Part shown: one piece after another, positions 25,767 through 33,730 of the stretch | How the letters are laid out: the number at the start of each line of letters is the position of its first letter | How positions within the stretch are numbered: position 1 is the first letter of the stretch | Assembly (NCBI GenBank): GCA_028876655.1 | Contig: JAGWRA010000191.1 | Coordinates: forward strand, 1-36,637 | Source of the DNA: Acidobacteriota bacterium | GTDB lineage: Bacteria > Acidobacteriota > Vicinamibacteria > Vicinamibacterales > CAVVIG01 | Length of the DNA stretch: 36,637 nucleotides | Direction of reading: 5' to 3' | Notes under the pieces: generated by a model | Told to the model about the DNA's origin: nothing | The model's input: only the letters and a program-made list of their open reading frames with translations | The model's database searches: none | Translations under genes and position numbers: made by a program

Positions 25767-28700
25767 CTAGCTGTTGACCGCCGTTGCCGGCGCAATCTCG
25801 GGGTTCGGGTTCTTCAGCAGCGCCAGGTACGTCGTGCGCGGCCGCGTGTTCAGGTCGGCGAGCAGCCCGTAGTTGCGCGTCTGCGCCTTCAGCTTCGACA
25901 CCCGGCTGTTCGGGTCGTTGATGTCGCCGAAGACGATGACGTCGGCCGGGCAGACGGCCTGGCAGGCCGTCAGGATCTCGCCGTCCTTCACCTTCCGGTT
26001 CTGCTTCTCCGACTCGATCTTCGCTTCCTGGATCCGCTGCACGCAGTAGGTGCACTTCTCCATGACGCCCCGGCTCCGCACCGTCACGTCCGGGTTGCGC
26101 ACGAACTTCAGGCTCGCCGTGTTCCAGTCCTGATAGAGCAGGAAGTTGAACCGCCGCACCTTGTAGGGACAGTTGTTCGAGCAGTACCGCGTCCCCACGC
26201 AGCGGTTGTAGACCATGTCGTTCAGCCCTTCCGAGCTGTGCACGGTCGCCCCCACCGGGCAGACCAGCTCGCACGGCGCGTTCTCGCACTGCTGGCACGG
26301 CACCGGCTGGCTGTAGACCACCGGGTTGTCGAGCGGCCCCTCGAAGTAGCGGTCGACGCGGATCCAGTGCATCTCGCGGCCCGCCATCACCTGGTCCTTG
26401 CCGACCACCGGGATGTTGTTCTCCGCCTGGCACGCGATGACGCACGCATTGCACCCGACGCACGCGTTCAGGTCGATGCTCATGCCCCAGGCGTAGCCGG
26501 TGTAGAGGTGATCGGGCGGATACAGCGTGTCGTCCGCCGCCGGCGTCTCGACCGCCTCCTCGACGAAGTTCGGGTGCTTGCGGAACTCGTCGAGCGTCGA
26601 CACCTGGACGAAGCCGCGCCCTTCCATGTTGTAGTGGGCGCCGACGGTCGCCAGGTGGAACTCGCCGTCCACCTTCTTCATCTGCAGCCCGGCGCCGCTC
26701 CAGAGCGCCGCCGCCGTCCGGATCCGGTTCGCGTCCACGCCCGTGCCGTCGCCGACCTTGCCGCAGCGCGTCCGCCCGTAGCCGAGCGTCACCATCGCGC
26801 AGTTGTCGGGCATCCCCGGCGTAATCGACACCGGCGCCTTCAGCGTCCGCCCCTCGAAGGTCAGCTCGGCCATGTCGACCAGCTGCTGGCCGTGCTCGCC
26901 GCCCTGGTAGGCGTAGCGGGCCCCGATCCCCAGCCGCTCGGCCGTCGCCGGGCTGATGAGCACGGCGTTGTCCCACGTCAGCCGCGTGATCGGCTTCGGC
27001 AGTTCCTGCAGCCAGCCGTTGTTGGCATAGCGCCCGTCGTAGATCGTCGGATCGAAGCGGAAGACGATCTCCATCCCGCCCGACGCCGCGGGGGGAATCG
27101 CCGGCATCGCGCCGCTCAGCGTCACGTCGACGGGCGGCAGCGCCGTGTTCGGCATCACGCCGTCGTTGAGCGCCTTGCGCCAGAACAGGTTGAACGCCGA
27201 TTCGCCGTCGGTGCCGGCCAGCTGCTGCACGGCGGCGGCTTCCGCGGGCGACGCCGGCTTCACCGCGCCGGAGGCGAACTGCTGCTTCCAGTACTCCCGC
27301 ACCACCTGGTACCCGGTGCGGCTCGGCTCCGACGAGAAGGCCGCGAGCAGATCGTGCGCCGACTTCCCCTCGTAGAGCGGCGCGATGAGCGGCTGCGCCA
27401 CCGAGATCGTCCCGTCGTAGGCGCGGCCGTCGCTCCAGGCCTCGAGGTAGTGCGTCTCGGGAACGTGCCACTGGCAGTGCGCGGAGGTCTCGTTGAAATG
27501 CGAGGCCAGGTGCACCCGCAGCGCCACTCTGGCCATCGCCGCGGCGAACGGCACGTCGGCCGGCGCCGTGTAGACCGGGTTGCCGCCGACGATGACGAGC
27601 AGGTCGACCTTGCCCGCCTGCATGTCGGCCACCAGCTCGCGCAGCGACTCGACCTGGTCGACCGGGTTCGCCTCGACCGGATCGGTGTAGACCACCGTCG
27701 TCCCGACGTTGCCGAGCGCCGCATTCATCGCATGCGCCAGCACGTGCACGGCCGGCGGCTGCTGCGCCCCGGCGATGACGACCGACTTGCCCGTGTGCTG
27801 CTGGAGATCCTTGACGACCGCCGCCACGTGCCCCTGCGTCGCGGCATCGAGGCCGGCCGGCACCGTGACGCCCTTCACGCCGAGCGCGGCTGCCACCGCG
27901 GCCGCGAAGACCGCCACCTGGCTCGGGCGCAGCGCCCAGCGGTGATCGGCCATGCTGCCCGTGTTGGTCAGGCTGCTCTCGGCCACGTACAGCCGGTTCA
28001 TCGTGCTGTCGGGACCGGTGACGCGCCGGCGGGCCGAGAAATCCCGGACGTAGCGCAGCGTCCCCGGACCGCAGTCGAGGAAGTCGGCGTCGAGCGACAG
28101 CACCACGTCGGCCCGATCGAACCGGTACTGCGTGTCGACGTCCCGCCCGAACGCCATCCGGGCGGCCGCCCGCGCCGGTTCGCGCCCGGTCTGCTCGTAC
28201 TGGTGCCACTTCGCCGCGGGGTACTCCTGGAGCAGCTCGCGGAACTGCGCGGCGAGCGACGGCGAGCCGACCGTCTCGCTCAGGAACCGGAGCCCGGCCC
28301 CCTTCGTGGTCTTCTTGTTGACCAGGATCGTCTGCATCGCCCCGACGAAGGCCGTCCAGGTCGAGGTCTGGCCGAGCTCGGTGATCGACTGCGCGCGGTC
28401 GGGGTCGTAGAGCGAGAGGACCGAACCCTGCGCGTAGACGCTCGTCGATCCCAGGCTCTCGGGGTGCAGGACGTTGCCTTCGACCTTGGTCGGCCGCCCC
28501 TCGTTGCTCTTGATGAGCAGGCCGGTCGAGACGCCGCCGAGCGTCATCGCCGTCGCGAAGTACAGCGGCTTGCCGAGGACGATCTCCTGCGGCTGGGTGA
28601 CGTAGGGGACGATCAGTTCCTCGGGCTGCTTCGTGCAGGCCGTCACGCCGGCCAGCGCCAGCGACGCCCCCATCAGCTTGAGGAACGTCCGGCGGCCCAG

Positions 28701-28865
28701 CGGGTCGAGCCATTCCGACGCCCGGCTCGGGAACTCGCGGTGCAGGATCTCCTGAAAGCCCTTGTTGTCGGTCAGCTCCTCGAGGCTGCGCCAGTACTCA
28801 CGGCCGCGCGACGCCCCGAGGCGCTCGCGGATGGATGCCAGGTCGAGGGTGTGGTCTGCACTCAT
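25767..28865 (-). CDS. actB: Alternative complex III subunit ActB (iron-sulphur/molybdopterin-like)
   Basis: A 1032-residue exported protein with a Tat signal (RRTFLK at 58-63). The large middle domain resembles molybdopterin oxidoreductases, but in ActB proteins it is known to lack the cofactor. The C-terminal ferredoxin-like domain (about 800-980) carries four cysteine sets: CVGCNACVIACQ, CQQCENAPCELVCP, CVGTRYCSNNCP and CTYC with ACQAVCP. The family holds three 4Fe-4S and one 3Fe-4S clusters. It relays electrons from the quinol site to the haems. It starts 51 bases after actA and stops 19 bases before actC. Confidence 0.95.
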   Translation of the reverse strand: MSADHTLDLASIRERLGASRGREYWRSLEELTDNKGFQEILHREFPSRASEWLDPLGRRTFLKLMGASLALAGVTACTKQPEELIVPYVTQPQEIVLGKPLYFATAMTLGGVSTGLLIKSNEGRPTKVEGNVLHPESLGSTSVYAQGSVLSLYDPDRAQSITELGQTSTWTAFVGAMQTILVNKKTTKGAGLRFLSETVGSPSLAAQFRELLQEYPAAKWHQYEQTGREPARAAARMAFGRDVDTQYRFDRADVVLSLDADFLDCGPGTLRYVRDFSARRRVTGPDSTMNRLYVAESSLTNTGSMADHRWALRPSQVAVFAAAVAAALGVKGVTVPAGLDAATQGHVAAVVKDLQQHTGKSVVIAGAQQPPAVHVLAHAMNAALGNVGTTVVYTDPVEANPVDQVESLRELVADMQAGKVDLLVIVGGNPVYTAPADVPFAAAMARVALRVHLASHFNETSAHCQWHVPETHYLEAWSDGRAYDGTISVAQPLIAPLYEGKSAHDLLAAFSSEPSRTGYQVVREYWKQQFASGAVKPASPAEAAAVQQLAGTDGESAFNLFWRKALNDGVMPNTALPPVDVTLSGAMPAIPPAASGGMEIVFRFDPTIYDGRYANNGWLQELPKPITRLTWDNAVLISPATAERLGIGARYAYQGGEHGQQLVDMAELTFEGRTLKAPVSITPGMPDNCAMVTLGYGRTRCGKVGDGTGVDANRIRTAAALWSGAGLQMKKVDGEFHLATVGAHYNMEGRGFVQVSTLDEFRKHPNFVEEAVETPAADDTLYPPDHLYTGYAWGMSIDLNACVGCNACVIACQAENNIPVVGKDQVMAGREMHWIRVDRYFEGPLDNPVVYSQPVPCQQCENAPCELVCPVGATVHSSEGLNDMVYNRCVGTRYCSNNCPYKVRRFNFLLYQDWNTASLKFVRNPDVTVRSRGVMEKCTYCVQRIQEAKIESEKQNRKVKDGEILTACQAVCPADVIVFGDINDPNSRVSKLKAQTRNYGLLADLNTRPRTTYLALLKNPNPEIAPATAVNS

Positions 28866-28916
28866 GACGATTCGCTGAAACTCACAAAGAACGACGTCGG
28901 GTCCGGCGGCCGCTCC

Positions 28917-29573
28917 CTACCGGTGGCACGTCGAGCAGCTCGTCAGGTCGGCCACGGGCTTGATGTGGTACTCGGCCACGAGCTTCCGGCCCAGCGCGAG
29001 CTGATCGGTCGGCGGCGTGTAATCCATCCGGAACACGTCCGCCCGCGGACGCACGTACCGCTCCGGGTGACGATGGCAGTTCAGACACCACTGCATCTGC
29101 AGCGACTGCACCTGCACCACCAGGGGCATCTGGTCGACCCGGCCGTGACAGGTCGAGCAGCCCACCCCCTTGTTCACGTGGATGCTGTGGTTGAAATAGA
29201 CGAAGTCGGGCAGATCGTGCACCCGCACCCAGCGCAGCGACGTGTTCGTCCGATAACTCGCCCGCACCGGCTCCAGATACGAGGCCTGGTTGAAGATCTG
29301 CGAATGGCAGTTCATGCAGGTCTTCGTCGGCGGGATGCCGGCGAACGCCGACGTCTCGACCGACGTATGACAGTACCGGCAGTCGATGCCGTTGCCGCCG
29401 ACGTGCCGCGCGTGACTGAACTGGATCGGCTGCGTCTGGATTTCGTTCTGGGTCGTCACCCACCCCGAGCTCTCGAAGGCGTTCATGAAGAGCAGCAGCA
29501 GGCCCACGACGAGCAGGCCCCCGAAGATGCTCAGCTTGGAGAGGGTATTGGCGCTGCGATGAAAGATCTGCAT
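28917..29573 (-). CDS. actA: Alternative complex III subunit ActA, pentahaem cytochrome c
   Basis: A 218-residue cytochrome with one N-terminal membrane anchor (about 14-31). It has five haem c sites: CRYCH (65-69), CMNCH (86-90), CSTCH (139-143), CLNCH (163-167) and CSTCH (213-217). Extra histidines (FSHARHV, FNHSIHV) can serve as distal ligands. It is the first gene of a 12-gene operon and receives electrons from ActB. ATG at 29571-29573 has no strong ribosome-binding site. Confidence 0.95.
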   Translation of the reverse strand: MQIFHRSANTLSKLSIFGGLLVVGLLLLFMNAFESSGWVTTQNEIQTQPIQFSHARHVGGNGIDCRYCHTSVETSAFAGIPPTKTCMNCHSQIFNQASYLEPVRASYRTNTSLRWVRVHDLPDFVYFNHSIHVNKGVGCSTCHGRVDQMPLVVQVQSLQMQWCLNCHRHPERYVRPRADVFRMDYTPPTDQLALGRKLVAEYHIKPVADLTSCSTCHR

Positions 29574-30118: not shown

Positions 30119-30535
30119 ATGAGCGATCGCAAGTACCGCCAGCGGGGCTATCAGGACGACGACCGGCGCGAGCCGGCGGCGTCCAAACCCGGGCCCACAC
30201 CGGCGCGCGAACGGCCGGAGGGGCCGCGCACGCCGAACCTGATGGGATTCCGCGAGGTCTTCCGCTGCGCGCGCTGCGGCAACCTCCTCCCGCTGCCGGT
30301 CGCCGCCGACGGCCGCTGCAACCGCTGCGGCGTCGACCTCCATGCCTGCATCCAGTGCGTCTCGTTCGACACCGGCCGCCGCTTCGAGTGCGCGCAGACG
30401 ATTCCGGCGCGCATCACGCCGAAGGACGCCCGCAACACCTGCACGCGCTTCGCCCCGCGCACCACGATCGAACGCGAGACCGGATCGACCGCCCCCAACG
30501 ATGCTCGCAAGGCGTTCGACGATCTGTTCAAGTAG
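30119..30535 (+). CDS. Small zinc-ribbon protein of unknown function
   Basis: A 138-residue soluble protein. A basic, disordered N-terminus (about 1-40) is followed by a four-cysteine zinc ribbon, CARC and CNRC (about 50-70, FRCARCGNLLPLPV and GRCNRCGVDL). A second cysteine set follows, CIQC plus single cysteines in FECAQTIP and NTCTRF. The C-terminus ends NDARKAFDDLFK. The pattern suggests a metal-binding structural or nucleic-acid/protein-binding role. I do not recognise a named family. It is a single gene facing away from actA, with no strong ribosome site before the ATG. Confidence 0.75.
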   Translation: MSDRKYRQRGYQDDDRREPAASKPGPTPARERPEGPRTPNLMGFREVFRCARCGNLLPLPVAADGRCNRCGVDLHACIQCVSFDTGRRFECAQTIPARITPKDARNTCTRFAPRTTIERETGSTAPNDARKAFDDLFK

Positions 30536-30722: not shown

Positions 30723-32969
30723 ATGCGCGTTCCGGCCGCCGCGCTCGCCGTCGTTCTCGCCGCCACGTCCGCTTCCGCCGTTCCCGTTCATTCCACATCC
30801 GCCTCCGGTTCCCGCACGCGCCCGACGCCGCCCGTCCTGCGCGCGCGCGACGGCCGCCTCGAGATCCGGGCGGTGCGCGCCACGACGCCGGTCGTGATCG
30901 ACGGCGTCCTCGACGACCCCGTCTGGCGGACGGCGCCGGTGGCCTCGCACTTCGTGGAGAGCGAGCCGGACGAAGGGCGGCCGGCCCGCGAACGGACGGA
31001 CGTGCAGGTCGCCTTCGACGCGCGCAATCTCTACATCGCCGCCTACTGCCACGACACGGATCCGGCGGGGATGGTCCTCAACGACGTGAAGCGTGACTTC
31101 ACGCCGGGCGATCAGGACGACTTCGAGGTGATCCTCGACACGTTCGCGGACCGCCGCAACGGGTTCGCGTTCATCACCAACGAGGGGGGCGCGAAGTCGG
31201 ACGAGCAGTTCAGCAACGAGGGGCGCGACATCAACACCAGCTGGGATGCCGTGTGGCACGTCCGGACGCGGCGCGTGGCCGACGGCTGGACGGTGGAGAT
31301 CGCGATCCCATTCCACTCGCTGCGCTTCAATCGCGCGCGGCACGAGGTCTGGGGGGTGAACTTCGGCCGGCGGATCCGCCGGCTGAACGAGCTCGACTTC
31401 TGGGCGCCGATCCCGCGCGCCTACGACCTCACGCGCGTCTCGCTGGCCGGCGATCTCGTCGGCCTCACGACGGCCGACCCCGGGCGCGACCTGAAGATCA
31501 CGCCGTACGTCCTCGGCAGCAGCGTCCGTACCGTCGGCGGGACGGCCTTCGACGGCACGGCCAACGCCGGTTTCGATCTCAAGTACGGCGTCACGCCGGC
31601 GCTCACGCTCGACGCGACCGTGCGGCCGGACTTCGCCCAGGTCGAGGCCGACGAGCAGCAGGTCAACCTCACGCAGTTCAGCCAGTTCTTCCCCGAGAAG
31701 CGGCCGTTCTTCCTGGAGAACGCGGGGCTCTTCTACGTGGGCGACGCCGGCGTGAACAACCGCATCACGGCCCCGACGCCCGACGAGGACCTGATGCTGT
31801 TCTTCAGCCGCCGCATCGGCCTGTCGTCGACCGGCGCGCCGATCCCGATCCTCGGCGGCGCGCGGCTCACCGGCTGGACCCACGGCGTCGGCATCGGCCT
31901 CATGACCGCGCAGACGGGCCGGTCGGGCCGCACGCCGGGCAACAACTACACGGTGCTCCGTGTCCGCCGCGACCTGTTCCGGAATTCCGACGTCGGCGCC
32001 ATCTTCATGATGCGGCAGGCGAGCGGCTCGTCGCAGGACTTCAACCGCGTGTACGGCGTCGACGCCAACCTCCGCTTCTTCGGCAACCTCGACTGGAGCT
32101 CGTACGCCATCCGGTCGGCGGCGCCCGGACAGACCCGCGGGCAGTACGCCTGGCGCACGTCGATCACCCGCGACACCGACTTCGACGACATCCAGACGGG
32201 CGTGATGGCGATCGGCGATCACTTCCGCGACGACCTCGGCTACTACCGCCGCACGAGCGATCGGAAGTTCTTCCTCAACGCCGGCATCCGGCCCCGCCTG
32301 GCCTCGCTGCAGCGTCACGGCATCCTGGAGATGCACCCGCACGTCACCTGGAGCTACTACACGGATCTGTCGGGCCGGATGGTCGCTAGGAGCCTCCGCA
32401 CCGGCTACACCTTCTTCTTCAACAACGGCGGGTACACCGAGGTCGCCTTCACCCCGCAGTTCCAGGCCCTCGCCACGCCGTTCACGATCCATCCCGGCTC
32501 GCCCGCGATCCCGGCGGGGCGCTACGGCTGGGACGAGTACCAGGCCCTGCTCAACTCCGATCCGAGCCGCGCACTCTCGTTCAACGTCACCGTCACGACC
32601 GGCGGGCTGTGGAGCGGGACGCAGCGGACCGTGAGCGCGGGGCTGACGCTGCGGGCGTCCTATCACTTCATGGCGAGCCTGAGCCTCCAGCGGACGGCCG
32701 CGCACCTCCATCTGCCCGAGACGCAGTTCGTCACCGACCTCTGGACGCTGAGCACGAACTACTCGTTCACGCGGAACATGTTCCTCGGCTCGCTGATCCA
32801 GTACTTCCAGGACCTGGGACAGATGAACATGAACATCCGCTTCAACTTCATCCACCACCCGCTCAGCAACCTCTACCTCGTCTACAACGAGGAGCGCGTC
32901 ACGACGCCCGAGGTGCTGACGCCCGGCCGGGGGCTGATCCTGAAGTTCACGCAGCTGATGTCGTTCTGA
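30723..32969 (+). CDS. DUF5916 outer-membrane protein with CBM9-like N-terminal domain
   Basis: A 748-residue exported protein. The signal peptide (about 1-19, MRVPAAALAVVLAATSASA) is followed by a carbohydrate-binding-family-9-like domain (about 40-230), with hallmarks PVVIDGVLDDPVWRTAP and VQVAFDARNLYIAAYCHD. The DUF5916 barrel starts near GVNFGRRIRRLNELDFWAPI and includes LDATVRPDFAQVEADEQQVN and FFPEKRPFFLENAGLF. The C-terminus LKFTQLMSF ends in Phe. Family members are common in Acidobacteriota and Bacteroidota. Their substrate is unknown, and glycan or peptide handling at the cell surface is inference. ATG 30723 is chosen over the frame's upstream extension because it yields a signal peptide and follows AGAGGGGG. 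Confidence 0.88.
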   Translation: MRVPAAALAVVLAATSASAVPVHSTSASGSRTRPTPPVLRARDGRLEIRAVRATTPVVIDGVLDDPVWRTAPVASHFVESEPDEGRPARERTDVQVAFDARNLYIAAYCHDTDPAGMVLNDVKRDFTPGDQDDFEVILDTFADRRNGFAFITNEGGAKSDEQFSNEGRDINTSWDAVWHVRTRRVADGWTVEIAIPFHSLRFNRARHEVWGVNFGRRIRRLNELDFWAPIPRAYDLTRVSLAGDLVGLTTADPGRDLKITPYVLGSSVRTVGGTAFDGTANAGFDLKYGVTPALTLDATVRPDFAQVEADEQQVNLTQFSQFFPEKRPFFLENAGLFYVGDAGVNNRITAPTPDEDLMLFFSRRIGLSSTGAPIPILGGARLTGWTHGVGIGLMTAQTGRSGRTPGNNYTVLRVRRDLFRNSDVGAIFMMRQASGSSQDFNRVYGVDANLRFFGNLDWSSYAIRSAAPGQTRGQYAWRTSITRDTDFDDIQTGVMAIGDHFRDDLGYYRRTSDRKFFLNAGIRPRLASLQRHGILEMHPHVTWSYYTDLSGRMVARSLRTGYTFFFNNGGYTEVAFTPQFQALATPFTIHPGSPAIPAGRYGWDEYQALLNSDPSRALSFNVTVTTGGLWSGTQRTVSAGLTLRASYHFMASLSLQRTAAHLHLPETQFVTDLWTLSTNYSFTRNMFLGSLIQYFQDLGQMNMNIRFNFIHHPLSNLYLVYNEERVTTPEVLTPGRGLILKFTQLMSF

Positions 32970-33016: not shown

Positions 33017-33730
33017 ATGGCTCTGCTCTCCGAACCCGATCGCCAACGGCTGCGCGAGGCGCTCGACGCCATGCCCGCGCCCGTCCGGCTGATGTTCTTC
33101 ACGCAGACCCTCGGCTGCGAGACCTGCCTGCTCGCCCGGCAGATCCTGGACGAGCTGGTCTCGCTCTCCGCCAGACTCACGCTCGAGGAAGTGAACCTCG
33201 TCCTCGACAAGGACAAGGCGGCGGCCTGGGGCATCGACCGCGTGCCGGCGATCGTCGTCGCCGCGGGTGGATCCGACGAGGTGGACGCCCGCGGGCTCCG
33301 CTTCTACGGCGCGCCGTCGGGCTACGAGTTCATGTCGCTGCTCGATGCCGTGATGCTGGTGTCGGGGCTGGCGGAAGGGGCCGGCGAGCCGGCGCTGTCC
33401 GACGAGAGCCTCGAGCTGCTGGCCGGCGTCGACCAGGCGGTCGACCTGCAGGTGTTCGTCACCCCCACCTGACCGCACTGTCCCCGGGCGGTCAGCCTGG
33501 CTCAACGCATGGCGCTCGCCAATCCGCACGTCCGCGCCACGATCGTCGAAGCGACGGAGTTTCCCGACCTGGCCCGCCAGTACCGTGTCACCGGCGTGCC
33601 GAAGACGGTCGTCAACAACACGACCGAGATCCTGGGGGCGCTCCCCGAGGAGATGTTCGTCCGGCAGGCGCTGCAGGATCTGGAGAAGGTCACCGAGGAC
33701 AGCGCGCGCGACAAGCCGCCGGCCGGGTAG
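33017..33730 (+). CDS. Protein-disulfide-oxidoreductase-like selenoprotein (tandem thioredoxin folds, in-frame UGA read as Sec)
   Basis: One reading frame of 237 residues if UGA at 33470-33472 is decoded as selenocysteine 152. Domain 1 (about 1-115) has the active site Cys34-Glu-Thr-Cys37 and the cis-Pro segment IDRVPAIVVA. Domain 2 (about 140-225) reads LQVFVTPT-U-PHCPRAV, so the redox site is Sec152-Pro-His-Cys155, with its own cis-Pro segment VTGVPKTVVN. Downstream residues EFPDLARQYRVTGVPKTVV and GALPEEMF match the second domain of PDO/Grx-like proteins and continue for 85 codons without a stop. A SECIS-like hairpin follows the UGA. Total length equals the usual PDO length. Alternatives are a nonsense mutation or a sequencing error (TGC to TGA). 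It ends six bases from the convergent permease gene. Confidence 0.82.
33484..33500 (+). promoter_or_regulatory. Candidate bacterial SECIS hairpin
   Basis: CCGGGC (33484-33489) pairs with GCCTGG (33495-33500) over six base pairs, one of them G-U. The loop is GGTCA (33490-33494). Seventeen nucleotides separate the UGA from the loop. Loop sequence and distance agree with the bacterial SECIS consensus (G in the first two loop positions) and with the E. coli fdhF element as I recall it. Confidence 0.7.

Follow-up and report, generated by a model that had tools for sequence, protein, structure and literature searches.

The window, by which we mean the whole analysed stretch of 36,637 nucleotides, carries on its forward strand a coding frame at 33017-33730 that ends at a TAG and contains exactly one internal TGA. 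Translation with TGA read as U gives a product of 237 residues, in which the TGA at 33470-33472 is residue 152 in the context VFVTPT-U-PHCPRAVSLAQRM. Under translation table 11 the frame would yield two ORFs, one terminating at 33472 and one of 73 codons that starts from the ATG at 33509. Residue 152 opens the second of two redox motifs (U152-P-H-C155), the first being C34-E-T-C37, encoded at 33116-33127 and recognized from the translation and comparison with homologues. The putative resolving Cys155 (33479-33481) occupies a column that is invariant in an alignment of eight rows; this cysteine was also demanded by our search patterns. By homology, Pro195 in VTGVPKT (33599-33601) would take the cis-proline position of the thioredoxin fold. 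Directly upstream lies a DUF5916 gene with a TGA stop at 32967-32969, and beyond it, at 30119-30535 on the same strand, a gene for a cysteine-rich, zinc-ribbon-like protein without a Pfam or NCBIfam family.

The product matched NCBIfam TIGR02187 (PDO_seleno_TRX, an equivalog model) with 240 bits against a cut-off of 185; the match runs over residues 6-219 and model positions 2-207 of 209 and thus spans the TGA. A redox motif in each of the two thioredoxin domains and the GVP195 of domain 2 are features of this family, and the model name suggests that the NCBI curators expect selenocysteine (Sec) in it. Pfam Thioredoxin_3 matched residues 143-219. Among solved structures, the protein disulfide oxidoreductases (PDOs) 2ayt/2ywm align with residues 8-227 (E 1.6e-36), placing a cysteine at residue 152 and GVPK at 193-196, and 1a8l aligns nearly end to end (E 1.2e-33). 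The placement of the TGA on the first cysteine of the second CxxC motif, proposed in the first-pass annotation, is thus borne out by both the frame translation and these structures. Like the cysteine-containing PDOs of thermophiles (2ayt/2ywm, 1a8l, 1j08, 2hls), the product contains two thioredoxin domains, each bearing its own redox motif, but those enzymes have Cys at the position of residue 152, 2ayt for example carrying CGYC where UPHC is found here. The tandem thioredoxin fold is shared also with the N-terminal domain of AhpF (1zyn, 1hyu), with weaker homology (residues 10-202, E 8e-12). We rejected an identity as AhpF, as the protein ends at 237 residues and lacks the C-terminal FAD/NAD(P)H reductase domains that are fused in AhpF, and TIGR03140 scored only 63 bits against a cut-off of 503.

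We searched the host genome (4.19 Mb in 281 contigs, 97% complete) for the machinery of Sec synthesis and insertion, and all four components named in the first-pass annotation were present. SelA was found on contig C60 (453 bits), a full-length SelB on C67 (331 bits), SelD on C251 (343 bits), and tRNA-Sec on C47 (60.6 bits with the Rfam model); ARAGORN likewise identifies the latter as tRNA-SeC, with the anticodon TCA. A second match above the cut-off of the tRNA-Sec model, on C251, was discarded since ARAGORN calls it tRNA-Ser(tga). The SelD gene (L018, G000:C251:64835-65761) has its own in-frame TGA, in the context MVACAG-U-ASK, which we take to be the active-site position of Sec-containing SelD. 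Judged by its reading frame, it is probably itself a selenoprotein gene. Elsewhere in the genome TGA is an ordinary stop codon, as in the DUF5916 gene. This stop, together with the complete Sec machinery and a Cys codon at the aligned site in all 36 TGA-free homologues described below, makes a genome-wide reading of UGA as another amino acid such as Trp, for which we found no supporting point, extremely unlikely.

We then read the codon at position 152 in related genes. Of the 60 nearest genomes, 39 contained a total of 41 full-length PDO copies, and the site codon was TGA in 32 of them and TGC or TGT in nine, always at the same position. The alternation of Sec and Cys foreseen at this column is therefore real, and close relatives do keep the TGA. 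A scan of named genomes with the pattern TPTxP[HY]CP[RAK]A, in which the site residue is left free, should favour neither Sec nor Cys, while missing other motifs. Its best 80 matches comprised 50 with TGA and 30 with TGC or TGT, distributed over Acidobacteriota, Rokubacteria, Zixibacteria, Chloroflexota and others. Pooling the nearest-genome copies with these best 80 scan matches gave 109 distinct homologues, of which, among the matches listed, 73 are Sec forms and 36 Cys forms (TGC or TGT at the site). The nearest named relative among the matches listed (L069; 68% identity, TGA) is from a metagenome-assembled genome of the Vicinamibacterales, an order of the Acidobacteriota, and on this basis the window probably belongs to the Vicinamibacterales as well. 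On a tree of the pooled homologues, the best estimate is that 10 Sec/Cys changes are needed, and at least five are forced by well-supported branches.

The form of the gene also follows the presence of SelB. In the set of relatives, 32 genomes have a TGA copy and seven have Cys copies only; SelB was found in 30 of the former and in one of the latter (Fisher p=5.7e-5, a significance inflated by kinship). We repeated the comparison with an even draw of 297 genomes from the phylum, some of which are also in the set of relatives. Here SelB occurred in 18/18 genomes with a TGA copy and in 9/31 with a stop-free copy, i.e., one lacking an in-frame stop whatever the site codon (p=4.7e-7, again inflated by kinship). 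The two TGA genomes in which no SelB was found, G001 and G010, both contain tRNA-Sec, and for G001 completeness is just 82%. Sharing of the same TGA by 73 of 109 distinct homologues, in many assemblies and phyla and with conserved sequence on both flanks, is the reason to reject the idea that TGC/TGT was misread in sequencing or recently mutated to a stop, leaving a pseudogene or two truncated proteins. In a draft contig a solitary TGA might arise in this way, and the TGA is followed by a short ORF from ATG 33509, but with the TGA forms so strongly tied to SelB we regard such an origin as highly improbable.

To be read as Sec, a bacterial UGA would be expected to be followed by a bSECIS element, for which the published model limits are a loop of 3-9 nt with a G within the first two loop positions, a stem of 4-16 bp and a spacing of 16-37 nt (PMC13188914). 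The hairpin at 33484-33500 (+), in which CCGGGC and GCCUGG form a 6 bp stem around the loop GGUCA, lies within these limits, its loop beginning 17 nt past the UGA with G as the first base. Taken alone, this hairpin is not above chance: half of 40 synonymous-codon shuffles fold equally well, single-sequence folding of the region gave a z of only -1.1 against plain shuffles, and in the best fold the UGA is itself base-paired. Because the window hairpin by itself is no better than shuffles, the case for a candidate SECIS is based on the comparison of homologues.

In the pooled homologues, the best loop start was at 17 nt in 65/73 Sec forms but in only 6/36 Cys forms. The mean energy of the hairpin at this fixed position was -12.2 kcal/mol for Sec forms and -7.8 kcal/mol for Cys forms (Mann-Whitney p=3e-6, with related rows included), and the mean z relative to each sequence's own synonymous shuffles was -1.17 and -0.52, respectively (p=6e-4, likewise with related rows). 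The three inner stem pairs can form in 57, 65 and 66 of the 73 Sec forms, as compared to 6, 18 and 10 of the 36 Cys forms. Synonymous codon use points in the same direction. At +7, Sec forms from the near relatives encode Val by GTC in 26/32 cases and Cys forms by GTG in 8/9, a split that fits expectation if the RNA, beyond the protein alone, is conserved. Sec forms thus preserve the predicted bSECIS-type hairpin, and most Cys forms do not.

These results make it very probable (around 96%) that UGA152 is a Sec codon directed by an in-gene bSECIS and specifies an active-site residue of a PDO-like selenoprotein. The earlier proposal that Sec replaces the attacking Cys of the second domain thus gains support from the TIGR02187 match, the Sec machinery and the Sec/Cys alternation. 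In the mechanism we envisage from sequence comparison, the hairpin just past UGA152, within the coding region, would direct decoding in vivo by SelB and tRNA-Sec. By homology with PDOs, the selenolate of Sec152 would make the attack at the U-P-H-C site, and Cys155 would resolve the resulting intermediate. In thioredoxin-fold selenoproteins Sec has a lower pKa and gives faster exchange. The CETC motif of the first domain probably hands on or accepts electrons. The electron donor may be a thioredoxin-reductase-like flavoprotein; a flavoprotein of this kind is the donor for archaeal PDO.

The alternative that survives best is that the UGA is mainly a conserved regulatory stop. In that case most of the product would be the truncated first domain as long as selenium is not plentiful, and read-through would act as a selenium sensor. 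The first domain could fold by itself, and low selenium generally leads to early termination at Sec-UGA codons. On the other hand, genomes without SelB have a full-length Cys version and not a truncated form, and we saw nothing to indicate that the first half of the gene is under selection of its own. We therefore consider a mainly regulatory role very unlikely.

Selenoproteins of the PDO type are not new, contrary to the suggestion in the first-pass annotation. TIGR02187 with a UxxC motif is entered as a selenoprotein family in PMC9312934 and in PMC13188914; the latter gives as reference Kryukov & Gladyshev 2004. Tables from 2006 list the family in Carboxydothermus hydrogenoformans and Symbiobacterium thermophilum (PMC1794560), and four members were reported in Asgard archaea (PMC11227280). 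NCBI names the family PDO_seleno_TRX. The kind of protein has thus been on record since 2004-2006, and the acidobacterial gene adds a well-supported member, not a new kind. It belongs to the same family and has the same type of UxxC motif as the known Sec-containing TIGR02187 proteins (PMC9312934, PMC1794560, PMC11227280), but the hosts named in those reports are Carboxydothermus, Symbiobacterium and Asgard archaea, whereas the present host is acidobacterial. Among the near relatives sampled here, it is the Sec form that prevails. A search by title and abstract, with partial literature coverage, found no paper reporting a Sec-PDO in Vicinamibacter or Rokubacteria. With this gene, an uncultured acidobacterial group joins the known hosts of a neglected family of selenoproteins. 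The gene also illustrates clearly how a single codon switches between Sec and Cys in step with the presence of SelB, and it leaves the understanding of Sec decoding unchanged.

The cysteine-rich gene at 30119-30535 recurs near other members of the family. Among the matches listed, 50 of the 109 PDO loci contain a homologue. Its position could be assigned for 27 named loci, and in 26 of these it precedes the PDO gene on the same strand, at a distance of no more than 250 bp or with a slight overlap. Most acidobacterial relatives have it immediately before the PDO gene; in the window, the DUF5916 gene lies in between. The zinc-ribbon-like CxxC pairs and a C-terminal AFDDLFK tail are conserved between the protein of the window and loci L069-L114. 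This gene position marks the cysteine-rich protein as a possible partner of the PDO, and its conservation near the PDO gene provides a testable clue to the substrate of the family.

The first-domain CxxC motif is more variable. One or both cysteines are lost in several Sec lineages, including an acidobacterial SESG clade, an NL(D/E)YG clade and Rokubacteria (e.g., L055, L064, L076, L085, L094, L109, L111, L108, L115 and L130). Raw counts of this loss were 28/73 for Sec forms and 3/36 for Cys forms (Fisher p=0.0013), but we rejected a link to Sec since no more than seven changes are required on the tree and independent pairs do not bear it out. Our tentative and rather doubtful proposal is that in Vicinamibacterales the Sec-PDO is the main form and works with the cysteine-rich, zinc-ribbon-like upstream protein as a dedicated, previously undescribed component, and that some Sec lineages without the first-domain CxxC are single-site selenoenzymes with a non-redox first domain.

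The host genome contains a second, Cys-containing copy of the family (CPYC; G000:C271:11348-11980 on the reverse strand, L023/L068). On the tree this copy falls within a clade made up mostly of Chloroflexota, where it groups with the copies of G036 (TGA) and G056 (TGC); this placement points to lateral transfer or else to a contaminated assembly. Elsewhere in the window, on the reverse strand at 25767-29573, a gene for a TAT-variant molybdopterin oxidoreductase/Fe-S protein adjoins one for a QrcA-related multihaem cytochrome c, and the pair looks similar to a portion of either an alternative complex III or a Qrc-type quinone complex.
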